Below, in pieces: positions 2,617 through 22,299 of a stretch of 22,429 nt of DNA. Positions within the stretch are counted from its first letter, which is position 1. Each line of letters begins with the position of its first letter. The DNA is from a virus. The notes below the pieces were generated by a model that ran no database searches, had not been told where the DNA came from, and worked only from the letters and a program-made list of their open reading frames with translations. The DNA lies in IMG/VR virus record IMGVR_UViG_3300027800_000326, positions 1 through 22,429 of that record; one strand, 5' to 3'. Both the position numbers and the translations under genes were made by a program.

Positions 2617-4458
2617 CTAAAGATCTTCAGTCACAGAGAAATCATGTTCAAAACCTGCTCTTGAAAGATACAACATAAACTGATGTAATAAATCATCAGA
2701 ATATGGAGATTTTAGACGCTTTGTTCTACTGATCCCAAAGTCAAAACACCTTTTTGATTGAGTATATGGTTTTTGAGAGATTCCTTTTACACAGTTGTAT
2801 AAAGATAATTGAGGCTTTATATTTTTTATTACATCTTTGATATCGTTTGAGATGGATAGTTCCTTATTAATACTATCAAACGCATCATAGCATTTTTCAA
2901 GTTTAAGGAAGCCCTTTTTTGTTTCTTTATAGTGCTTTTTTAATGAGTCTTGTAAAAATTCTTCGCATGGAATTTTATCTAAATCTAAATCTATTTTACT
3001 GCAACCATCTGCGTTAAAAACACATAGGTCCAAATAATTCAGATCTATAGTTACATATGAGGGGAAATATAAAAAATATTCTTGTGTATCATCAAGAAAT
3101 GCTCGGACTTTTAACTTTTTATATGCTTTTTTTAACTCATCATATTCAGATTTTAATTTATCGTATTCAGATTTTAATTTATCATACTCAGATTTTTCGG
3201 TATTATCATCAATAGGAGTATTTTTCTGTAACTCATTTTTTTGTAATGGTACAATCATACCAGCAATTAATTCTGGAGTCCTTTTTCCATTACTCCTTAT
3301 TGAAAGATTACATGGCTGTACCAACAATATATATCTTTTGTCATTGATCTTAAAAATATCACCATTAGCTAATGGATAGTGAAGCTTGTTGATTAATGCA
3401 CTACCATAATAAAGTTCATCTTTACGGATTGATTTTATTTCTTTTTTGTTAAATTGAGTTTTAGCACCTGTCTCAATTTTTTCAAATTCTCTAATATTAC
3501 TAATGTTCGCAGTAAATTTGCTTCTTTGTTTTCCATCAGATATACATTCTTTAAATCTTTTATCTAATAGTATATTCGTAAGCCGGAAAAAGGTATCAAT
3601 CTCCCACACTCCCTCTTTTTCTGAACTTTTTTGGACAATATGATTAAATATTTCTGGTGACATATCTGATAAATATTTACTTGTATTATCAAAAGATTCT
3701 TTAATAATATCAATAGATTTAGTTTTTAAATCTTCAATTGCTGTTACCGTAAGAGCATTACGCATACCCTCAGCAAGCCCGGCCATGCCTTCTTCGGAAT
3801 GTCTTTTTTTGGAAATGGTATAAAAACGTTTAAACTCTATCCCCCGTTCAGAAATCTCTTTTCTTTTTTTATTTTCGTCTTCAATGGAAAAAGTATGTGA
3901 AAAAAGCCCACAGTAAATTTTTTCTGCATGTTCGCCAGTCAAGATATCTTTCGCTAACTCAACGCCATCAAATGTACAGCCCTCAAATTCGATATCAAAC
4001 AAGCAGAGCATTTTTTTATCATCTGTCAATATTTTCAGTAATTCCGCTTTACGCTCTTGCCATTGATTAGGTGTAAATGCAATCTGTTCAATCATCTCTT
4101 TTGGCAGATTCAATGGGAAATTGTAAACAAGTTTAGAATTCTCTATATCGTCAACCTTTCCCTCCTCATTTTTTAATTCTGAAAGATATTTTTTCTTTTT
4201 TTCTTCTGTTAAGCTATCCCACAGTGCTTCAATATATTGGTGAAACGGTGCTGTTGGTAAATTCCATTGAATCTGACTCAGTTGTTTCTGTAATTGTTCA
4301 TTTCTAACAACATAGGCTGCTTTAAGTGCTCCTATAAAATAGCCTTTTTCATGTTCTATATCATTTTTATCATCAATATATACAAGATACTTAATTTTTA
4401 AAAGTGTCATAAATCGAGATATCGCATTTAAAGCTACGCTTGTGGAATCCTCTGGCAT
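2617..4458 (-). CDS. Response-regulator-like protein of the GHKL/methylase cassette
   Basis: 613 residues, third gene of the operon. The N-terminal ~230 residues read as a receiver domain split by an insertion: strand 1 with acidic pair D29-D30; after about 110 inserted residues, candidate phospho-acceptor D155 in LFDIEFEG followed by DGVELAKDIL; a strand near residues 181-190; and the FYTISKK strand supplying the conserved lysine. These match receiver landmarks, inferred by eye. The middle holds a KRYILLVQPCNLSIR segment, then three SEYDxLK heptads forming a short coiled coil, then a 150-residue C-terminal region I cannot place. The obvious partner is the upstream histidine-kinase-like protein. 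The ATG has AGGA-type sites 9-15 bases upstream and lies 21 bases after that gene's stop. The effector activity, if any, must be in the unrecognised C-terminal part. Confidence 0.8.
   Translation of the reverse strand: MPEDSTSVALNAISRFMTLLKIKYLVYIDDKNDIEHEKGYFIGALKAAYVVRNEQLQKQLSQIQWNLPTAPFHQYIEALWDSLTEEKKKKYLSELKNEEGKVDDIENSKLVYNFPLNLPKEMIEQIAFTPNQWQERKAELLKILTDDKKMLCLFDIEFEGCTFDGVELAKDILTGEHAEKIYCGLFSHTFSIEDENKKRKEISERGIEFKRFYTISKKRHSEEGMAGLAEGMRNALTVTAIEDLKTKSIDIIKESFDNTSKYLSDMSPEIFNHIVQKSSEKEGVWEIDTFFRLTNILLDKRFKECISDGKQRSKFTANISNIREFEKIETGAKTQFNKKEIKSIRKDELYYGSALINKLHYPLANGDIFKINDKRYILLVQPCNLSIRSNGKRTPELIAGMIVPLQKNELQKNTPIDDNTEKSEYDKLKSEYDKLKSEYDELKKAYKKLKVRAFLDDTQEYFLYFPSYVTIDLNYLDLCVFNADGCSKIDLDLDKIPCEEFLQDSLKKHYKETKKGFLKLEKCYDAFDSINKELSISNDIKDVIKNIKPQLSLYNCVKGISQKPYTQSKRCFDFGISRTKRLKSPYSDDLLHQFMLYLSRAGFEHDFSVTEDL
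3140..3196 (-). repeat. 21-bp tandem repeat encoding SEYDKLK heptads
   Basis: Two complete near-identical 21-bp units at 3140-3160 and 3161-3181 and most of a third at 3182-3196. They encode three consecutive SEYDKLK/SEYDELK heptads. Unit number could change by slippage without altering the reading frame, changing the coiled-coil length. Confidence 0.85.
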
Positions 4459-4479: not shown

Positions 4480-6966
4480 TCATTTGATAATATTTGAAAA
4501 ATTAATTAAAAATATATATTTGCGATTATGATGATTGTTTTTTGGATCAACTGTTATCATACATCCAATTGAATCAAGAAGTTGCTGAACTATGAATAAT
4601 CCTAAACCTCGCCCTAACTCTCTGGGCTTCATAGTGGCAAATGGCTCAAAAAGAGTATTTTCAATCGAATTAGCAATTCCATATCCATTATCGTAGATAG
4701 AGACCCATGGTTTCTCAATAATTATGGTTATTCGTGATTCTTCACCAGGTGTGTCCTTCTGCTTGTCTAATAACCAATATTCCGAGTTATTTAAAATATT
4801 ATCTATAATTTGGGTAAGTTTACCTTTATTAATGTTAATAGCAAAATTGTCAACGGTTTTAATGTCCAGTTTTATACCTGATTTCTCAAATTTTTTCTCG
4901 TAGTAGTTTTTTTCTTCGGTAAAATAATTTAAAAGATCAATTTCCTGGTTTTTCTCTCTTTTATATTTCAGAGTAGGATCAACATGTTTTTGTAGAGTCC
5001 TTAGCCCTGAGATCGCTGTATTGACATATTCAATCAGGATAAAAGCATCTCTACTTTTAAATGTACCTTTTTGAAGTTTGTTGGAAAAAACAGCTACTCT
5101 ATCACTTAGGCTATCAGCAACATTATTGAATTCATGACTAATAGATTCTGCAAGCAAACCAATTGCGGCTAAAGAAGAAAAATTTTCCAGTTGTTCTTCT
5201 AAAATCTCAATTTTTGGTTTTAAAACATCAATAATCTCTGGTAAAAGCTCTGACGCTTCAATAATTGGTGTCATTTGAATAATAGTATCTTCAATCAATT
5301 TGAGTTCATTAAAGATATTTTTAACTTTTTCTGCAACCTGCCGTTCAATATCTGTTGCAAAAATTGGATCGTCTTCTACCTTCATTAAATAACTGGAAGT
5401 ATCTTGTTTTATTTTTTCAATTGTTTGCTTTGTTTGAGAAAATTGGAATTTTATATTTTTGACAGAATTTGCGGTATTGTTAATGGAATCAAAAGCCTGT
5501 GATACCGTTTTGATTTTGTTGTTTGCGGTTACTATCTTCTCAAGATACTCATTGTACTTTCGTCTTATGCTCTCTAAAAATCCAGAGCACTCATTACGAA
5601 TTAAAAATGACAATTCTAAAAAATTCTTTGAGTATGGAGTTTCAATAAAACCATTTCTATCTGTTTTATCCCTAAGATTCGAATTTACCCCTTCATCAAT
5701 AGCAAAGTAGCCTATTGTATTATGTGGCCTTAAGCCATAATATGAACCCCCAGAAGTTTGAGCTGCTCCCAATTTCATCCAGTCCAAACCAGAACTAAAA
5801 CCATATGGTTGTACAGCAAAGCCATTTCTGTAAATTTTTATTCCTACTTGATTTTTAGCGAACTCTTTAAAATTTGATAGGCTATCGAATGCACTATTTT
5901 TTTCTTCATGGTATGTTTTAGAGCTAAAGTTGAACTCATCTATTTCTCCAAAAAAATTTCCTGGGTTTGCCTTATGATTACCATCATACTCTAATTTAGA
6001 AACCTCTTGATCAAAATCTATTTCCTTTTTAAAACCTAAAAAATAGTTTTGGTTTGGTGTTGCAAAGAATTGGTTCTCATTATTAGATTTATTATAATGT
6101 GACAAAAAAAAATCACTGAATTTCTTTCCTTTGTCACCTGCAATAAACCGAATATATGAATCTAAGCTCTTTTTTGTATTGCCAATTAATTTTTCCGGTT
6201 TTATTTTGCCCTCAACAATCAATTTATTCCCATCAAAATAAAACTTGAACCTACTTATAGCAAGATCCCGTAAGTTTTCATTTTCTTGGCTTAGATCTAT
6301 ATTGTCAGAATTAATCGTTAAATAAACTTGAAAAGGCTTATTCTCTTGGTAGGGGGATATCATCATACTTAGCTGGGCTTTGAACCGCTCTAAATTACTA
6401 CTTTTCCAAACATTGGGTTGTTTTAAATTCAGTAAAACTATTTCCGTGCCATTAGGTTCATTGGTTGTCTGTTCTGATACTTGGACAGGTACTTCACTCA
6501 ACTTTGGACTGCTTTCAAAATCTTTCCAGTTAAAAGAAACTATTACCTTATTTTGGGTTCCTTCTTCGATTGTTTTGATTTCGCAGAATTCTGCCAGTCT
6601 TTGGGTGCTCAGTCTTCCTAACCCTTTTTCTCCTAATGGCGTTCTTCCTTTTGGAGTTTTTGCATTTCGGGACTTCATTTCACGTTTTGATGAATAAGAG
6701 ATCAAAAGCCAAGATTTCACTATGGTCTCTTTGTTCATGCCAAATCCATCATCTTTAATGGTTATAAAACCATTATGATTGGGATATTGAGCTGAGTCGG
6801 CATTATAGCTGCCAGATGTATTAAGTTCTATGCTGACCCATGTTGCATCGGCATCGTAAGAATTCTTAACAAGCTCCATCAAGGCAGTGATCTCATCCGG
6901 GACAAGCTCTTCTCCCAACTGTCTTACAACATGAGGGTCTATGTCGAATCGATGTCTTTCTTCCAT
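4480..6966 (-). CDS. Dual-GHKL protein: MORC/Hsp90-like ATPase plus histidine-kinase module
   Basis: 828 residues. The N-terminal GHKL ATPase has the N-box E31-x3-N35-x2-D38, the D72-x-G74-x-G76 motif and a glycine lid GEKGLGRLS near 113-121, as in Hsp90, MutL and MORC ATPases. A middle region follows, then a coiled coil of about residues 460-600. The C-terminus is a histidine-kinase core: H-box ISHEFNN with H611, N-box DNILNNSEYW, DNGYGI, LFEPFATMK and GRGLGLFI. No membrane segment or signal peptide, so it is cytosolic. It starts five bases after the methylase stop and precedes the receiver-like gene. Family knowledge: MORC-like GHKL ATPases occur in bacterial restriction-modification contexts. 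Inference: it senses DNA or phage cues and may phosphorylate D155 of its neighbour. Confidence 0.88.
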   Translation of the reverse strand: MEERHRFDIDPHVVRQLGEELVPDEITALMELVKNSYDADATWVSIELNTSGSYNADSAQYPNHNGFITIKDDGFGMNKETIVKSWLLISYSSKREMKSRNAKTPKGRTPLGEKGLGRLSTQRLAEFCEIKTIEEGTQNKVIVSFNWKDFESSPKLSEVPVQVSEQTTNEPNGTEIVLLNLKQPNVWKSSNLERFKAQLSMMISPYQENKPFQVYLTINSDNIDLSQENENLRDLAISRFKFYFDGNKLIVEGKIKPEKLIGNTKKSLDSYIRFIAGDKGKKFSDFFLSHYNKSNNENQFFATPNQNYFLGFKKEIDFDQEVSKLEYDGNHKANPGNFFGEIDEFNFSSKTYHEEKNSAFDSLSNFKEFAKNQVGIKIYRNGFAVQPYGFSSGLDWMKLGAAQTSGGSYYGLRPHNTIGYFAIDEGVNSNLRDKTDRNGFIETPYSKNFLELSFLIRNECSGFLESIRRKYNEYLEKIVTANNKIKTVSQAFDSINNTANSVKNIKFQFSQTKQTIEKIKQDTSSYLMKVEDDPIFATDIERQVAEKVKNIFNELKLIEDTIIQMTPIIEASELLPEIIDVLKPKIEILEEQLENFSSLAAIGLLAESISHEFNNVADSLSDRVAVFSNKLQKGTFKSRDAFILIEYVNTAISGLRTLQKHVDPTLKYKREKNQEIDLLNYFTEEKNYYEKKFEKSGIKLDIKTVDNFAININKGKLTQIIDNILNNSEYWLLDKQKDTPGEESRITIIIEKPWVSIYDNGYGIANSIENTLFEPFATMKPRELGRGLGLFIVQQLLDSIGCMITVDPKNNHHNRKYIFLINFSNIIK

Positions 6967-6971
6967 TGAGT

Positions 6972-8285
6972 TTATCTTTTGAAAATCAATACGTTCTCTT
7001 TTCCCATTGTTTTACTAATATTATTTCTGGAGGGCATTCGCTTATTTTGAATTTCTCTTTTTAAATCAACTATTTGCCCGACACCGTAGAATTCTAATAG
7101 TTCTTTTAGTATCAAAGTATTGTGTAATTCTTTGCCACCAACATGCCTATTCCCAATTGTAAAAATTAAATAACCATCTTTATTTATTGAGTTTACAATG
7201 TTTTTGATAGATTTGTTAAAATCATAAAAGAAATAAAGGACTTTATTAATTTTGCTATGATCATTAGAGTCAAATGAACAATAAAATTGCTTTAATTCAT
7301 TTGAAATGGAAAATAAGTTTTCTTTAATATCTAATAAGTTTTGATAAGCTTTACCGCCTAAACTCCTCGTATCAATTTCAGCGGTCGTTTTTAGGCAATC
7401 GCTATCAATATCAGGATCAATATCTTTCAAATTAATCCACTGCAACGGTAAATAAGAATATTGACCATACGTTACTGTTGTCTTGTTGTCTCCGTATGGT
7501 GGCGATGTTAATAGTAAATCAAACTTTTTAAGGCTTCTAATCCTTTTTGCTGAATCACCCAACTTCAGAGTTATATTTTTTATGTACTTATCTTTATGCA
7601 ACCAACCACAGTCATTCAACATGGTTCTATATTGAGTTATGTCTTTCATATTTCTATTTGAAATTTCAGAGAACATTTTTATGGGAGACATTCTTCTTAA
7701 TTCAATTTCACTTTTAGGCCTAACATGTAGCTTAAATGTAGATGTTCTATCGTTACTTGAGAGCCTTATGGTTTCAGCAAATGCAACCCATAAAAATTTT
7801 CTAAATAACAATTGCTTCTCAGACATAATGCCACGTCTGATTTTTGATAATTCAATTTGAACATCAGATTCAAACCATTTATCCAAATTAGTGAAAGATA
7901 CTTCAACCTTTTGATTTTTGTCTTCTAAAATTTTATTCAAAACCTCTTTTAATCTACATGTTGAACCTTTAATATAAGGTCCAGTTTTTACTTGGCTAAT
8001 TAATAGAGATAATGGATTAATATCTTGGCCAAATATATTAAATCCATATTTCATTGAAGTGGCAAAAGAAGTGGCAGAGCCCATATATGGATCTATTATC
8101 CAAGGATCACTTGGTAGTAGATTAAGGACAGCCTTTAGTATAGGTTCTTGAACAGATGGTACCATCATTGCTGGATATTGGAACAATCTATGAACATAAT
8201 CTCTTCTGTTATGGTTGGCACCATTGAGAATGTCAGTGTCAAGATTATTAAAACAATCAATTATTTCCTGTATAACTTGGGCCAT
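6972..8285 (-). CDS. DNA amino-methyltransferase (TRM11/SPPY class)
   Basis: 437 residues, first gene of the cassette. SAM-binding motif I is D65-PYMGSAT with the downstream acidic residue D88 in FGQDINP; the catalytic motif IV is T260-SPPYG. Motif I precedes motif IV by about 190 residues, an alpha-like order with a probable target-recognition region between them. SPPY is typical of N4-cytosine or N6-adenine enzymes, so the base is not determined. The ATG has GGAAAG about nine bases upstream and a good promoter at 8338-8366. No restriction nuclease is visible in the operon, so modification may serve self-recognition for the ATPase/receiver pair, or be an epigenetic mark. AT-rich like its two neighbours. 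Confidence 0.85.
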   Translation of the reverse strand: MAQVIQEIIDCFNNLDTDILNGANHNRRDYVHRLFQYPAMMVPSVQEPILKAVLNLLPSDPWIIDPYMGSATSFATSMKYGFNIFGQDINPLSLLISQVKTGPYIKGSTCRLKEVLNKILEDKNQKVEVSFTNLDKWFESDVQIELSKIRRGIMSEKQLLFRKFLWVAFAETIRLSSNDRTSTFKLHVRPKSEIELRRMSPIKMFSEISNRNMKDITQYRTMLNDCGWLHKDKYIKNITLKLGDSAKRIRSLKKFDLLLTSPPYGDNKTTVTYGQYSYLPLQWINLKDIDPDIDSDCLKTTAEIDTRSLGGKAYQNLLDIKENLFSISNELKQFYCSFDSNDHSKINKVLYFFYDFNKSIKNIVNSINKDGYLIFTIGNRHVGGKELHNTLILKELLEFYGVGQIVDLKREIQNKRMPSRNNISKTMGKENVLIFKR

Positions 8286-8542: not shown

Positions 8543-8836
8543 ATGACTAATAAAACTCACTTTGAATGGGATGAACACAAAGATAAGACCAACCAGGAAA
8601 AACATGGCGTCTCATTCGCTTTGGCTCAATCAGCTTTTTTAGACCAGAACCGTATTATCTTGGAGGACTTGAACCATAGTGCCGATGAACAAAGATTTTA
8701 TTGTCTGGGCAAGATCTCTGACGGGATTTTGACTGTAAGATTTACTTATCGCTCTAATACAATCAGAATCCTCGGTGCTGGATACTGGAGAAAGGGTAAA
8801 AAAATCTATGAAAAAGAAAATAGAATACACAGATGA
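8543..8836 (+). CDS. brnT: BrnT family toxin (type II TA)
   Basis: 97 residues, typical BrnT length. Family landmarks are visible: FEWDEHKDKTNQEKHGVSF at residues 8-26, then HSADEQRFYCLG, LTVRFTYR and a C-terminal IRILGAGYWRKGKKIYEK in the place of the usual RIISAR-A-K-E-R-x-Y block. BrnT is a RelE-fold ribonuclease toxin in the cytoplasm, neutralised by BrnA. The start is fixed by homology to the FEWDE opening; no Shine-Dalgarno precedes it and the promoter's -10 ends six bases before the ATG. It overlaps the brnA start by 29 bases. The TA pair lies between the defence-like operon and the phage-like element. Confidence 0.9.
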   Translation: MTNKTHFEWDEHKDKTNQEKHGVSFALAQSAFLDQNRIILEDLNHSADEQRFYCLGKISDGILTVRFTYRSNTIRILGAGYWRKGKKIYEKENRIHR

Positions 8837-9038
8837 ACCTATGGACAACGTGAAGGTGATATCCGATTTCTTGCCATCTCCTGAAGAGTTGGTCTTAAAA
8901 GATCAAACTGTGAAGATTACACTCTCATTGAGCAAGTCCAGCGTTGATTTTTTTAAGAAAGAGGCAAAAAAGTATAACACCCAATATCAAAAAATGATCC
9001 GTCGCCTTCTGGATGATTATGCAACTCATCAGGCATAA
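8808..9038 (+). CDS. brnA: BrnA family antitoxin (type II TA)
   Basis: 76 residues from the ATG at 8808, chosen over an upstream in-frame ATG at 8775 because AAAGGG lies about 11 bases before it and the MKKKIEYTDEP opening fits BrnA. The N-terminal 35 residues bind toxin in this family; the C-terminal VKITLSLSKSSVDFFKKEAKKYNTQ and MIRRLLDDY segments look like a ribbon-helix-helix DNA-binding domain. It neutralises BrnT and autoregulates the pair. The last residues include YATHQA. The gene overlaps the end of brnT, so translation is coupled. Confidence 0.85.
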   Translation: MKKKIEYTDEPMDNVKVISDFLPSPEELVLKDQTVKITLSLSKSSVDFFKKEAKKYNTQYQKMIRRLLDDYATHQA

Positions 9039-9103: not shown

Positions 9104-9370
9104 TCATTGTTGTTTTATCTGAATCATTTCCACACTCTTTATCTGCATGTTCAGATGCCTGAGCACACACAGATCATTAAGACATTTATGATACCTGACT
9201 CTTGCTCCATCATCCCAGGGCTTGGTAGTTATAATTTTGGTTTTCAGGCCACAAATCGGGCAAATAGCTCCTGAGTAAGAAGTATATTCAACCCCTTGTT
9301 CAGCTATACTCTGTACTTTTTTTATTACTGCTATCACAGCGCTTGTATGGCCCATATCCCCTCCAATCAT
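9104..9370 (-). CDS. Ogr/Delta-like phage zinc-finger protein
   Basis: 88 residues from the ATG at 9370, four bases after the large-terminase stop, with GGAG eight bases upstream; an alternative ATG at 9355 gives 83 residues. The core is C-x2-C-x22-C-x4-C, beginning ICPICG and ending YHKCLNDLC, exactly the spacing of P2 Ogr and P4 Delta, which activate late-gene promoters with host RNA polymerase. The C-terminal stretch (VLRHLNMQIKSVEMIQ) is shorter than in Ogr. It is the last gene of the minus-strand operon. A Com-like translational regulator or a generic zinc ribbon are alternatives. Late activation is family inference; the cysteine spacing is seen. Confidence 0.7.
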   Translation of the reverse strand: MIGGDMGHTSAVIAVIKKVQSIAEQGVEYTSYSGAICPICGLKTKIITTKPWDDGARVRYHKCLNDLCVLRHLNMQIKSVEMIQIKQQ

Positions 9371-9374
9371 TGTC

Positions 9375-11354
9375 TCAACTCCAGAAATCCCCACCACCTG
9401 TGAATGGATTTTCAACAACCTCTTTTTTCCTGACCACAACCTCCTGACTGGCTTCCAGAAGCAGGTTAACCCCACCGCCCGGCCACTCCCAATCCGCTAC
9501 AATGGAGGCCATGCACTCGCAGTCAAGATAGTGGTTTGCCGCACTGGAACTCTTTTGCATCCACTTTTCAACCCCGCGGTCATCAATCTGCTTCTCTTCT
9601 GCCAGGATCTGCTTTGCATAACTCTCATCAGTATCAGCATGAAGGAAAGCGCCACCAGGCAACCCCTCCATTGCCTTTTCCAGACGCATGAAGAACATAT
9701 CCTTGAGCTTGTCAGTATCAAGCAGAATATTGCGCATACCAGCTCTTAACGGTTTGCCTGATGGAGTTTTGTTCAGAGGGTTTCCAATTCTCATTTTTGA
9801 CGGCAGAGGGTTGGAAGAGCCCTTAACACCCCAGACCCTGCACCCCATGCCATACCCCATCCGGCTCTGTAGCCACAGATATGTCTCTTCAGTTGAGGAT
9901 ACGTTGGAGGAGTATTTGCCTCCGCCAGTGTCAATTGCCGCTCTCCAGATCCCGGAAATATGGCCACACCCATCAACCGGATATCTTTTTTCAAACAGCA
10001 GTTGATCAACATCTGCCCAGGAGTCGAGATACCCGTAATCAACCAGCCAGGATGTGTAATCCTTTGCCCAGGCTCGCACAACAAACCAGAACCCGTGTTT
10101 CTGTACATCAATTCCGGCTGTAAGGGCCACTGCTTTTGACGGTACTGTCTGACGGGCAAGAGATGTGCAGCACTGGAGAATATCGCTGTATTCAGCAGTC
10201 ACAACCACGTTTTTCCACGGTTCAGCAGCATAATTGTTCCGAAAATCCCTCAGTTTGATCCTGTTTTTCTGCCCACGCAGAAAAGCAGCAGCACTTTCCG
10301 ACAGACTGACAAAGAAAGAGATCCATGCAGGCAAAAGAAAACCCACTTTTTTAGGGGCATATGCCTGCATATATGCCGGAACAGTCAGATTAAACTTGCC
10401 TCTGGAACGCCACTCTCCGGCTCTTACTGCCCGATTTCTCACCTCATCATCCCATTTCGCCTGGCAGAACTGACACTCGTACCAGGCAAGCAGCTTTGAC
10501 TCCACGGTTTCCGGATCTGCCTCTCCACCTTCCGGCCATTTTATCTGCTCAAAGACCATCACCTGATGCTGGCCACAGTGCGGACACTTGGCATAAAAAT
10601 CAAAGATCACCTGAGCTTCAGTGTTAAGGGCCTGCCAGATTGGCCCTGTTTCCACAGACGGGGTGGAGAGCTTCCAGATTTTAGCCTTTCCACGTCTTCT
10701 GTATGTGGTTGTCCTCTTCTCTCCAAGGGAGATCGGGTCAGACTCTGTTTTTGATGCTGCCGAAGGGTATTTGTCTGTCTCATCAAAGACAACATACCGG
10801 ATAGGGTCAGATGCCAGACTTGTAGCTGAGTGAGCCCACCCGATTGAGATGGATGTGTGCTTTAAAGAGAGTCCAAGGTTTGTCTCATCGTTCACAGCTC
10901 CGGTCATCAGCCGCCTGAGCCTCGGGCTCTCTTTGAACATGGGGATCACCCTTGTTCTGAGCTGCTTTTTTGCAGATGATTCATTAGGGTAAACATACCG
11001 TACCGGCCCAGGCTCCCGGTCAGTGCGCTTGCCAATGCAGTTATGGACAGCTTCGGATCCTCCTGACTGAACGCATTTGCACAGAATCACTGTCTGCACA
11101 CACTCGTAATCAGCAGCATCCATGATATCTACCAGGTACGGGGTGACAATGTTCTTCCATGGCCCCTTCATCTCCGATTCTGACACATACCGGTACTTTT
11201 CTGCCCAATCGCTGGTTTTCATGGATTTGAGCTTTCTCAATATCCGCTTTTCAGCAAATGAGAGTGAGAATTTCAAAGGTTTGCTGCCCTGTTCCCTGAT
11301 CAGGTTGACGTAGGCTTTTGGCATCCATGACGGTATTTTTACACTGAGTTGCAC
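9375..11354 (-). CDS. terL: Phage terminase large subunit, GpA family
   Basis: 659 residues, the usual GpA length. It packages phage DNA: an N-terminal ATPase translocates and a C-terminal nuclease cuts. The ATPase region shows CKCVQSGGSEA (K93 to about 103) where GpA proteins carry their P-loop-like motif, and the Walker B VVFDET with D191-E192. A CPHCG and CQFC pair forms the family's zinc finger at about residues 257-310, and AGIDVQ with D416 opens the nuclease domain. The canonical P-loop lysine position holds serine; lambda gpA likewise has an atypical motif (KSARVGYSK) using an earlier lysine. It starts four bases downstream of the small subunit. No portal or capsid gene follows. Confidence 0.92.
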   Translation of the reverse strand: MQLSVKIPSWMPKAYVNLIREQGSKPLKFSLSFAEKRILRKLKSMKTSDWAEKYRYVSESEMKGPWKNIVTPYLVDIMDAADYECVQTVILCKCVQSGGSEAVHNCIGKRTDREPGPVRYVYPNESSAKKQLRTRVIPMFKESPRLRRLMTGAVNDETNLGLSLKHTSISIGWAHSATSLASDPIRYVVFDETDKYPSAASKTESDPISLGEKRTTTYRRRGKAKIWKLSTPSVETGPIWQALNTEAQVIFDFYAKCPHCGQHQVMVFEQIKWPEGGEADPETVESKLLAWYECQFCQAKWDDEVRNRAVRAGEWRSRGKFNLTVPAYMQAYAPKKVGFLLPAWISFFVSLSESAAAFLRGQKNRIKLRDFRNNYAAEPWKNVVVTAEYSDILQCCTSLARQTVPSKAVALTAGIDVQKHGFWFVVRAWAKDYTSWLVDYGYLDSWADVDQLLFEKRYPVDGCGHISGIWRAAIDTGGGKYSSNVSSTEETYLWLQSRMGYGMGCRVWGVKGSSNPLPSKMRIGNPLNKTPSGKPLRAGMRNILLDTDKLKDMFFMRLEKAMEGLPGGAFLHADTDESYAKQILAEEKQIDDRGVEKWMQKSSSAANHYLDCECMASIVADWEWPGGGVNLLLEASQEVVVRKKEVVENPFTGGGDFWS

Positions 11355-12177: not shown

Positions 12178-13521
12178 TCATAGCCTCTTAATTAAATTTG
12201 CCTTTTTACCCGTATAGTTCTCCCATCTCCGGATAATCACATCACAGTATTCCGGAGTCAGCTCCATTCCATAACAACGTCTGTCCAGGGCCTCACACGC
12301 TATCAACGTGCTCCCTGAACCAAGAAAGCAGTCAAACACAACATCACCCACCGCGGAAGAATTCCGTACCGCTCTTTTAACAAGCTCCACAGGTTTCATG
12401 GTTGGGTGCTCTTCGGATCTGTTCGGCTTTGGAAAATACCAGACTGTCTCCATCCCCTCATCCTGGTATTCAAGTTTGTAATCAGACACAGATAAAATCA
12501 CAGAGCCGTCATTTGTGTTAATGTTGACTGTCTTTTTATCTCCATGATCCTCAACAACAATGGATGGAATCTGCTGATACATGACAGAATCCTTGTTGCG
12601 TCCTCCATTCCAGAAATGACGCCCCTTTTTATTTCCATACAGAATAGGCTCGTGGCGGTAATGATAATCTCCCCTGGAAAAAACAAACTGCCCCTTCACC
12701 CACATCAAACACTGACGAAAAATCAGCCCGTTTGCAGCAAGAGGCTCCCGGAATGGCTTCCACATACTGTCAGCATGACAAATATAAAATGCTCCGCCAT
12801 CCACCAGGCTTGATGCAATATTCTGATAGACACTGTTCATGAAAGAATAGAAGGCATCAGGAGCCATGGAGTCATTCTTGATTTTTTCTCTATTCTGCTT
12901 GTTTCCACCAGAATAGTTGACGTTATATGGAGGATCAGTAAAACACATGCTGCATTGATGGCCATTAAGCAGTACAGAGACATCAGAAGGCTTTGTTGAA
13001 TCACCGCACATCAGCATGTGTCCCCCAAGCTGATACAGATCACCAGGCAGGACACTGCACTCCTCTTTCACATCAGGAACATCATCCTGATCAGTAAGGC
13101 CTGCAGAATCTTCCAGGCCATTAAGCAGGCTGTTTATATCTGCCTCAGAAAAACCTGGAATATCCAGCAGCCCGAAATCATTAATTTTCAGATCCAGCAG
13201 CTCTTCAAACAGCAGTTTTTCATCCCAGTTGCTCTCACCCACTTTGTTGTCAGCCATTCTGAATTTTCTGACCTGCTCAGGTGACAGGCTATCAAGCATG
13301 ACTGTGGGAACATGATCAAGCCCAAGCTTTACAGCAGCCAGGTATCTGCCATGGCCAGCTATAATCGTATGGCTTTTATCCAGGAGGATGGGCACATTAA
13401 AACCATACAGGGATATGGACTTTGCAATTTCTTCAACCTGTTTGGACGGATGCTTTTTTGCATTGCCTGAATACGGAGTTATCAACTCAAGCTGGATATT
13501 TTTGATTTCAGGTGATGACAT
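12178..13521 (-). CDS. ParB-domain DNA methyltransferase fusion
   Basis: 447 residues. Residues about 8-130 are a ParB/Srx-like domain (LITPYSGNAKKHPSKQVEEI, then IIAGHGRYLAAVKLG), followed by a beta-class amino-methyltransferase: catalytic D196-P-P-Y199 first, then HPTMKPVEL and the SAM-binding FLGSGST with G401 and G403. DPPY suggests N6-adenine methylation, though cytosine N4 is possible. Such fusions are recurrent in phages and prophages and probably protect the genome from host restriction or mark it for packaging. It overlaps the upstream gene's stop by one base (TGATG) and touches TerS with no gap, so it is part of the packaging block. Confidence 0.9.
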   Translation of the reverse strand: MSSPEIKNIQLELITPYSGNAKKHPSKQVEEIAKSISLYGFNVPILLDKSHTIIAGHGRYLAAVKLGLDHVPTVMLDSLSPEQVRKFRMADNKVGESNWDEKLLFEELLDLKINDFGLLDIPGFSEADINSLLNGLEDSAGLTDQDDVPDVKEECSVLPGDLYQLGGHMLMCGDSTKPSDVSVLLNGHQCSMCFTDPPYNVNYSGGNKQNREKIKNDSMAPDAFYSFMNSVYQNIASSLVDGGAFYICHADSMWKPFREPLAANGLIFRQCLMWVKGQFVFSRGDYHYRHEPILYGNKKGRHFWNGGRNKDSVMYQQIPSIVVEDHGDKKTVNINTNDGSVILSVSDYKLEYQDEGMETVWYFPKPNRSEEHPTMKPVELVKRAVRNSSAVGDVVFDCFLGSGSTLIACEALDRRCYGMELTPEYCDVIIRRWENYTGKKANLIKRL

Positions 13522-21047: not shown

Positions 21048-21419
21048 ATGGAACAGATTGTTGATATAACAGGACTCGCACAAGTTCTGCACTGCTCTGA
21101 CCGAACGCTTGAAAAGCAATGGCAGCAGTATCCTCATTTTTTTATAGGGGAGGGCAGGGACTTAAGAGGCGCAAGGTTTGACGTTTGTGATGTTATTGAC
21201 TTTCTGAAACAAAGGGATTATAGCAATGCCATATCCAGACAAGAAAAAGCGAACTTGGATAGGACAAATAAGAATAAATGGAGTCAAAAGAAAAAAAACC
21301 GGATTCCCGACAAAATCGGCAGCAACAGAATGGGAACGGATGACAAGTCAAGAAATATTGTATCCGAGTCAAGATCCGGATGTATTGAAGAGTTCGCACG
21401 CCATTTTGGAATATCTTAA
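21048..21419 (+). CDS. AlpA/excisionase-like HTH protein overlapping int
   Basis: 123 residues from the ATG at 21048, chosen for GGGAG five bases upstream over the ATGs at 21030 and 21036. The N-terminal 65 residues (DITGLAQVLHCSDRTLEKQW, then FDVCDVIDFLKQRD) form an MerR/AlpA-like winged helix as in excisionases and phage terminase-Nu1-like regulators. After about residue 60 the frame is read over the start of the integrase gene in a different frame for 194 bases and becomes low complexity and basic. Either the overlap is real or the C-terminal half is an incidental extension. Position just before int suggests a directionality factor. Confidence 0.6.
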   Translation: MEQIVDITGLAQVLHCSDRTLEKQWQQYPHFFIGEGRDLRGARFDVCDVIDFLKQRDYSNAISRQEKANLDRTNKNKWSQKKKNRIPDKIGSNRMGTDDKSRNIVSESRSGCIEEFARHFGIS

Positions 21420-22299
21420 ATACTGCGACACACGCCAGAAACCTCACACCTGCAAATACAAAACCTTCATTCTCAAGGGGCTTCTTGAACACCGGAACTG
21501 TGCTGAAATTCCTATATCTGAAATTACTCAGATTTTCATTGAATCTTATCTTGACCATAGATTTGCATCTGGGGGTGGGAAAACAGCAAACAGAGACATG
21601 AGAGAAATAAAAACATGCTGTAACTGGCTTTTGCAGCGTGATTATATAAATACCAATCCTTGCAAAAATATTGTACAGTATAAAGAGGATATGTTTTCAA
21701 AATATGTTCCTCCAGCAGAAGATATTCAAGCTGTTCTTGCAGTTTCAAATTCTATGGAAGCAGATATCATAAGAGTGGCATATCACTCTCTTGCAAGATC
21801 AGGAGAAATCCGTCAGATGAAATTTTCAGACTGTGATTTTCTAACACGCTCAGTGAAAATTTATACTGCTAAACGTAAAGGAGGATCTCTTGAATATGAT
21901 ACAATATCTATGAACCAATCCCTTTATGAAATACTTGACAGAAGATATCAGCAGCACCTGCCAAAATGTGATTGGATTTTTCCTGGAGAAAATGGCCAAC
22001 AATTATCCAGGGATAGTATAAATAAGATAATGCCCAGACTCTGCAAAAAGGCGGAGGTAAAAGCTTTTGGATTGCATAGCATCCGGCATCATGTGGCAGC
22101 TCTGCTTACTACTCGACTAACGCTCATTGAAATTCAAAAAGTATTGAGGCATAAACGAGCAACAACCACTGATATTTATCTGCGGAGTTTGATAAAGATT
22201 GACACAAAAGGGATTCATGTCCTTGATGAACTGGAAAGTCAGTCAGTTTGCAATGGTGATAATATTGTACCCTTTAATAAAATAGTGAACGAAAGATGA
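21226..22299 (+). CDS. int: Tyrosine recombinase integrase
   Basis: 357 residues. The N-terminal 40 residues (KKRTWIGQIRINGVKRKKTG) are an AP2-like arm-binding domain, then a SAM-like core-binding domain (about 60-150), then the catalytic domain with R191, H284-x-x-R287, H309 and Y318, the complete tyrosine-recombinase set apart from the strand-turn lysine near residue 215 (TAKRKG). It would integrate and excise the element at an att site. AAAGGG lies nine bases before the ATG, which overlaps the preceding HTH gene by 194 bases in another frame. It is the last gene of the element on the right. Confidence 0.92.
   Translation: MPYPDKKKRTWIGQIRINGVKRKKTGFPTKSAATEWERMTSQEILYPSQDPDVLKSSHAILEYLKYCDTRQKPHTCKYKTFILKGLLEHRNCAEIPISEITQIFIESYLDHRFASGGGKTANRDMREIKTCCNWLLQRDYINTNPCKNIVQYKEDMFSKYVPPAEDIQAVLAVSNSMEADIIRVAYHSLARSGEIRQMKFSDCDFLTRSVKIYTAKRKGGSLEYDTISMNQSLYEILDRRYQQHLPKCDWIFPGENGQQLSRDSINKIMPRLCKKAEVKAFGLHSIRHHVAALLTTRLTLIEIQKVLRHKRATTTDIYLRSLIKIDTKGIHVLDELESQSVCNGDNIVPFNKIVNER

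Follow-up and report, generated by a model that had tools for sequence, protein, structure and literature searches.

A sensor kinase with two GHKL modules encoded in a conserved cassette with a DNA methyltransferase and a receiver-effector protein

Three adjacent genes on the minus strand of a virus record

The stretch of DNA analysed here, a virus record of 22,429 bases (hereafter the window), contains three consecutive genes encoding a DNA methyltransferase (MTase), a histidine kinase with two GHKL modules and a receiver protein with an additional C-terminal domain (Table 1). The MTase gene lies directly upstream of the kinase gene with a gap of 5 nt, and the receiver gene is found directly downstream of the kinase gene after 21 nt. 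The original prediction was confined to the middle gene, and had missed both the partners as well as the strand. The architecture of the kinase and its partnership with the MTase and the receiver protein are well supported by the results given below.

Table 1. Features of the three-gene cassette, with positions in the window.
Feature	Position	Strand	Basis
DNA methyltransferase, 437 aa, SPPY-type (TSPPYGDN), first cassette gene	6972..8285	-	PADLOC MTase_II, alignment, neighbourhoods of relatives
Two-GHKL sensor kinase, 828 aa	4480..6966	-	ORF call, Pfam, alignment, AlphaFold model
MORC/MutL/Hsp90-type GHKL ATPase + S5 transducer (ATP clamp), residues 8-472	5551..6945	-	Pfam HATPase_c_3, structure matches
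E31 codon, predicted catalytic Glu of clamp ATPase	6874..6876	-	Kept in 36/36 aligned core orthologues
Long helical/coiled-coil linker, residues 473-594	5185..5550	-	Predicted helices 444-482, 488-532, 539-632
DHp-like helical hairpin, residues 595-666	4969..5184	-	Model; DHp-CA matches begin at 595-608
H611 codon, predicted phospho-acceptor His (ISHEFNN)	5134..5136	-	Invariant in 56 relatives, 37/37 core
Histidine-kinase CA domain, residues 673-828 (N, G1, F, G2 boxes)	4483..4950	-	Pfam HATPase_c, CckA match
Receiver-effector protein, 613 aa, third cassette gene	2617..4458	-	ORF call, model, orthologues
REC domain with inserted helical stretch, residues 16-241; D29/D30, D155, K217	3736..4413	-	CheY4 match, conserved residues
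D155 codon, predicted phospho-acceptor Asp	3994..3996	-	37/37 orthologues
Effector domain, residues 340-613, NGDIF...YILxxQPC(D/N)LxxRxxGxR...LDL...R...R	2620..3441	-	32-orthologue alignment

The cassette is conserved across many phyla

A genome scan with three orthologues gave 257 relatives, 80 of which were taken for study, and the scan of viral contigs gave 64 loci when an alignment was used and nothing when a single protein was the query. More than 130 relatives were recovered, and the MTase, kinase and receiver genes were present together in ~40 core loci. These loci came from Bacteroidota, Pseudomonadota, Thermodesulfobacteriota, Acidobacteriota, Gemmatimonadota, Planctomycetota, Armatimonadota, Actinomycetota and one archaeal bin. 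The gene order was MTase-kinase-receiver, the exceptions being the divergent viral locus L086 and the pair L028 and L036, whose MTase gene lies downstream of the other two on the opposite strand. The kinase and receiver genes were adjacent in nearly all the core loci, and in an Armatimonadota MAG (L029, 9001-12798) the kinase and the receiver-effector form a single fused protein of 1266 aa. A few core contigs are cut, and the MTase was found in every core locus that was complete enough to judge. There was no sign of a fourth cassette gene, as no other family occurred in more than 3 of the ~40 core loci. The conserved MTase-kinase-receiver cassette, in ~40 loci over many phyla, is new here.

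The pairwise distances of the MTase, the kinase and the receiver protein correlate with each other (r 0.92-0.95), as is expected of any co-inherited operon. The closest partner of the window in the MTase tree is a Thermodesulfobacteriota MAG (L006), and the clade around the two is mostly Bacteroidota, a placement that indicates transfer between phyla. When the window was compared with L006, dN/dS was ~0.12 for both the MTase and the kinase; for the receiver protein, of which the N-terminal part was compared, it was 0.19. All these values are rough because dS is near saturation. The cassette genes are under purifying selection.

Both halves of the kinase are GHKL modules

The middle gene had been predicted to encode two different GHKL ATPases in one protein, and both the Pfam profiles and the predicted structure placed each half in this superfamily. 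HATPase_c_3 matched residues 27-169 (E 2.9e-17) and HATPase_c matched residues 716-810 (E 1.7e-14), both above their curated cut-offs. Because the same profiles recur in 55 of the 56 and in all 56 aligned relatives, respectively, the two GHKL domains are not a chance observation. The AlphaFold2 model made from 56 sequences (mean pLDDT 85.2, pTM 0.62) was compared with the PDB, where residues 8-472 matched the Morc3 ATPase cassette (5ix2; Z 20.1, 300 residues, 3.5 Å), MutL (1b62; Z 18.4) and the Hsp90 family. Similarly, residues ~599-828 matched the DHp-CA region of CckA (Z 17.8) as well as ZraS and HK853, and the CA domain matched that of CckA (5idm) with Z 17.9 over 145 residues at 1.9 Å. These matches indicated that the N-terminal half is a complete GHKL plus S5 clamp and the C-terminal half a DHp-CA kinase having H611 in the first DHp helix.

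The N-terminal module has the Bergerat fold, an N-box with its E and N residues, the DxGxG motif and a glycine lid, and in the predicted structure the GHKL domain is followed by an S5/transducer domain as in the MORC/MutL/Hsp90-type clamps. The residues E31, N35, D38, D72, G74 and G76 were the same in all 36 aligned core orthologues. The original prediction had placed this module at residues 1-130; the motifs that it named (E31/N35/D38 and DxGxG) were borne out and its extent had to be revised, as the match including the S5/transducer spans residues 8-472. The coiled coil of about 140 residues proposed to link the two halves was approximately right, the predicted helical linker being 444-632.

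In the C-terminal half, the profile, the structure and the conserved residues agreed with a histidine kinase carrying H611 in ISHEFNN, that is, a DHp helix with the His followed by a CA domain with N, G1, F and G2 boxes. H611 lies within the predicted helix 539-632, which is followed by helix 638-666 and then by the CA domain, and its modelled position is therefore in the first of the two helices of a DHp-like hairpin and not outside the dimerisation helix. The residues H611, N723, N727, D759, G763, F773, F776, G785, G787 and G789 were present in 37/37 core orthologues, the position G761 had G in 33 of these 37 and A in the other 4, and the subset H611, N723, N727, D759, G763, G785, G787 and G789 was invariant across the alignment of 56 kinase sequences. 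As no transmembrane-type region was evident in the kinase model and the gene adjoins that of a receiver protein, the description of this protein as a cytosolic sensor fits.

The partner carries a receiver domain and a conserved C-terminal domain

The receiver protein was modelled with pLDDT 83.2 and pTM 0.73. Its receiver domain gave no Pfam receiver match, and Response_reg_2 (PF19192) did not match any of 34 receiver proteins at E <= 0.1. In structure comparison, it matched CheY4 (4h60; Z 10.5, 118 residues, 2.8 Å), showing the (beta-alpha)5 receiver fold with the acidic pair, the Asp and the Lys in place. D155 and K217 were found in 37/37 orthologues and the acidic pair D29/D30 was essentially invariant, and the Thr expected after beta-4 (T189) was present in 24/37, at a position where the alignment is uncertain. 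E195 of the same protein (window numbering, 2617-4458) was also invariant in 37/37, though it is outside the usual receiver catalytic residues.

The variation at T189, together with the HEF_HK profile (PF19191), which matched the kinase weakly at residues 602-629 with 14.7 bits and thus under the Pfam cut-off of 24.1, would be in keeping with a C-terminal GHKL half that is no longer a kinase, where two ATPases and a receiver make a static DNA-remodelling complex. We regard such a complex as very improbable, because H611, the Asn pair of the N-box, D759, the G2 glycines and the receiver residues D155 and K217 are all invariant, and this is the pattern needed for active phosphotransfer. The same invariant residues strongly suggest that H611 and D155 would be the donor and the acceptor in a phosphotransfer reaction.

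The C-terminal domain of the receiver protein (residues 340-613) is defined by a conserved motif, in which the window has N at the (D/N) position of QPC(D/N)L. This domain matched no Pfam family, and the sequence search against solved structures gave nothing meaningful. When the whole receiver protein was used for fold searches, only residues 16-241 were covered, and these searches therefore make no case for a new fold in the effector. In a profile comparison, the domain aligned with its counterpart at the C-terminus of distant receiver partners (prob 90.7, E 1.3e-6), and many distant receiver proteins have in common a domain with TGDI...VLTPxCDL. The cassette points to an effector domain that many receiver proteins share, in a widespread family whose description has so far been computational only. 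In a Hymenobacter plasmid (L003, 10560-12356) the receiver-effector gene is labelled as a cytochrome P450, which is probably a misannotation.

No recognised nuclease motif was found in the effector domain, and the REC-plus-helices part of the model matched PorX (Z 9.5, 168 residues, rmsd 7.5), a receiver protein with an enzymatic output. Furthermore, the MTase has been retained in all the core loci that could be judged despite its moved position in some, as happens in addiction modules. These observations would suit an abortive-infection switch, in which a compromised MTase or self-methylation would cause the effector to poison the cell, by acting on RNA, nucleotides or protein, and foreign DNA would stay uncut. 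This switch seems rather unlikely, as no toxin family matched the effector, and its relationship with PemK/MazF toxins, which was suggested by eye (GDI...ILLxQPC) and by a weak viral fold match (rank 20), was not supported by hhalign (prob 0.3%). The origin of the effector from an MvaI/BcnI nuclease was also rejected, with an hhalign prob of 0.08%.

The MTase is related to those of MvaI/BcnI-type restriction-modification systems

The first gene matched PADLOC MTase_II with E 3e-84, as a DNA methyltransferase of type II restriction-modification (R-M) systems does, and has an FxGxG-like SAM motif upstream of TSPPYGDN. Among the relatives of this protein are plasmid MTases whose neighbours are MvaI/BcnI-family endonucleases, in Latilactobacillus, Lactococcus, Parabacteroides and Halorubrum, with identities of 28-31% over >90% of the length in L166, L168 and L169 and of 25.6% in L170. 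In viral contigs, only 4 weak matches to the cassette MTase were found. The MvaI/BcnI endonuclease profile found nothing in the core cassette loci, and the same profile gave matches in L115 and L096. The core cassettes thus share a homologous MTase with MvaI/BcnI-type R-M systems and differ from them in that kinase and receiver genes come after the MTase in place of that endonuclease. Because the MvaI/BcnI endonuclease is absent from the core loci, the kinase and receiver genes occupy the position expected of an endonuclease.

A cognate restriction endonuclease was not found in the cassette, there being no recurring fourth gene and most cassettes having no recognised nuclease at all. HNH_2-like genes for HNH-type endonucleases were found near the cassette in L018 (6768-7577), L019 (6653-7441) and L030 (8936-10012), and because the effector lacks a nuclease signature, the nuclease may be separate or accessory. 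The true endonuclease could then be an HNH or other nuclease encoded elsewhere, leaving only modification and licensing to the cassette, and HNH_2 was the commonest nuclease near the HEF_HK family in the 2021 study of that family (Bellieny-Rabelo et al, 2021; PMC8011034). We consider this arrangement improbable, as an HNH gene was seen in only 3 of the ~40 loci and none was seen in the window.

The kinase and the receiver could also form an ordinary two-component regulator of the MTase or of host genes, in the manner of an R-M controller protein. An HTH regulator is found alongside the R-M relatives of the MTase, and HEF_HK pairs were suggested in that study to be signalling proteins that control R-M systems (PMC8011034). 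However, none of the 34 receiver proteins matched an HTH or winged-helix family, no separate endonuclease that such a regulator could control recurs among the cassettes, and the strongly conserved effector motif is not a known DNA-binding output, which makes a regulator of this kind an unlikely explanation.

Relation to HEF_HK, paraMORC and other known families

The HATPase_c_3+HEF_HK+HATPase_c architecture was described computationally in 2021, and in that report it is the most common HEF_HK architecture (174/222 proteins), HEF_HK being linked to a receiver-like partner in 91.6% of 644 regions with R-M genes nearby (Bellieny-Rabelo et al, 2021; PMC8011034). The cassette shares with these HEF_HK (PF19191)/Response_reg_2 (PF19192) pairs the domain order, the His-Glu motif, the soluble nature, the adjacent receiver and the nearby methylase. 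It differs in that the kinase of the window scores below the HEF_HK cut-off, its receiver has no PF19192 match and its MTase is of SPPY and not C5 type. The S5 clamp, the kinase-receiver fusion and the MvaI/BcnI connection are additional here to what the available text of that report describes (PMC8011034). The claim that the two-GHKL protein is unusual therefore stood only in part, given that common architecture and the number of relatives recovered here, yet neither the kinase nor its partner is captured by those Pfam models.

The paraMORC GHKL families in R-M operons were defined earlier (Iyer et al, 2008; PMC2292703), and these also have an N-terminal GHKL+S5 unit beside DNA methylases, whereas the C-terminal output in the window is a histidine kinase and the cassette has no helicase or RE-fold domain. 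Since the architecture and the paraMORC families are already published, the two-GHKL kinase is not categorically new. The BbrUII/HgiDII restriction enzymes have a similar N-terminal GHKL module, but the match of their model (NF050001) to the kinase was confined to residues 6-226 with 89.2 bits, far under the cut-off of 550. The GHKL-Shedu protein VcSduA (paraMORC3), an experimentally tested antiphage protein, likewise has a GHKL clamp proposed as the gate of an antiviral output, but the output of VcSduA comes from a PD-(D/E)XK nuclease on the same polypeptide and not from a phosphorelay (PMC12137116). The GHKL modules of VcSduA and of the BbrUII/HgiDII model provide a precedent for the clamp in an antiviral role.

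No experimental study of the cassette or its relatives was found in the literature searched on HEF_HK, GHKL/receiver defence and two-component antiphage systems. The DefensePredictor systems having HATPase and REC among their labels are predicted and not validated. Kinase-receiver phosphotransfer is used for defence in the Detocs antiphage system, whose sensor and effector are unlike those of the cassette and which has no MTase.

Among the distant kinases, 102/107 are followed directly by another ORF, and most of these ORFs begin with a receiver-like acidic motif. The 64 upstream neighbours of distant kinases included 26 C5 MTases, 12 matches to Eco57I or N6 MTase models and 5 N6_N4 MTases, these counts being overlapping. 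In the wider family, then, the kinase and receiver genes stay together and it is the class of MTase that changes. The cassette of the window is a divergent branch, with a different MTase class and an apparently missing endonuclease. In a Polaromonas plasmid (L005, 5998-11225), a distant kinase-receiver pair lies beside FtsK/SpoIIIE and PAPS-reductase-family proteins with no MTase annotated alongside, and it is possibly a version tied to DNA phosphorothioation. On a viral contig (L115), the neighbourhood of a distant kinase-receiver pair includes a gene (1369-2685) for a 439-aa protein with an MvaI/BcnI-like endonuclease domain.

A proposed phosphorelay in an R-M-like defence cassette

We propose, with a probability of about one half, that the kinase is a cytosolic sensor with a MORC/MutL-type clamp as its input and is the middle gene of an R-M-like defence cassette that acts by phosphorelay. 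The MTase would mark self DNA, and the clamp would dimerise on ATP and engage DNA that lacks the MTase mark or is in an abnormal state. Closure of the clamp would reach the DHp domain via the coiled coil and lead to autophosphorylation of H611. The phosphate would then pass to D155 of the receiver, which would free the C-terminal effector for restriction or cell killing. We infer both the DNA signal that the clamp would sense and the chemistry that the effector would perform, and the clamp may drive the kinase directly, as had been suggested for this protein. The further proposition, that the phosphorelay replaces the endonuclease, with a MORC-like clamp detecting unmodified DNA and His-Asp transfer licensing the effector (GDIF, QPCD, Arg), is put forward tentatively. 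If the proposal is true, restriction can run on two-component signalling, and a MORC-type clamp is read out by a phosphorelay, where phospho-H611 would be a direct and easily assayed report of the DNA state detected. MORC-type clamps are related to ATPases through which animals and plants silence transposons.

Genomic context of the cassette

Defence genes were frequent neighbours of the cassette, the flanks of core loci including BREX (BrxL, PglZ), GmrSD, Thoeris-like TIR/ThsB, Hma, PD-T7-1, R-M genes and integrases, in a survey made without a random-locus control. In the window, the GC content of the cassette is 0.30-0.35, and that of the adjoining phage genes at 9-19 kb is 0.39-0.51. Among these phage genes are those for a large terminase, for primases and for a ParB-MTase fusion, and an integrase is encoded at 21226-22299. 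The cassette looks like the cargo of a prophage or satellite. Searches of the window for tRNAs and Rfam families found none, and beyond the terminase no gene for a portal or capsid protein was noticed. A small Cys-rich ORF on the minus strand (9104-9475), which is Ogr/Delta-type activator-like by eye, overlaps the end of the terminase gene, and this ORF together with a P4-type primase and the integrase suggests a phage satellite. The ParB fusion (12178-13521, minus strand) is a second DNA methyltransferase joined to a ParB-like domain, as judged from PHROG matches. Two small overlapping genes on the plus strand (8543-9038), divergent from the MTase gene, resemble a BrnT/BrnA toxin-antitoxin pair, the BrnA model matching with an E of only 0.018.
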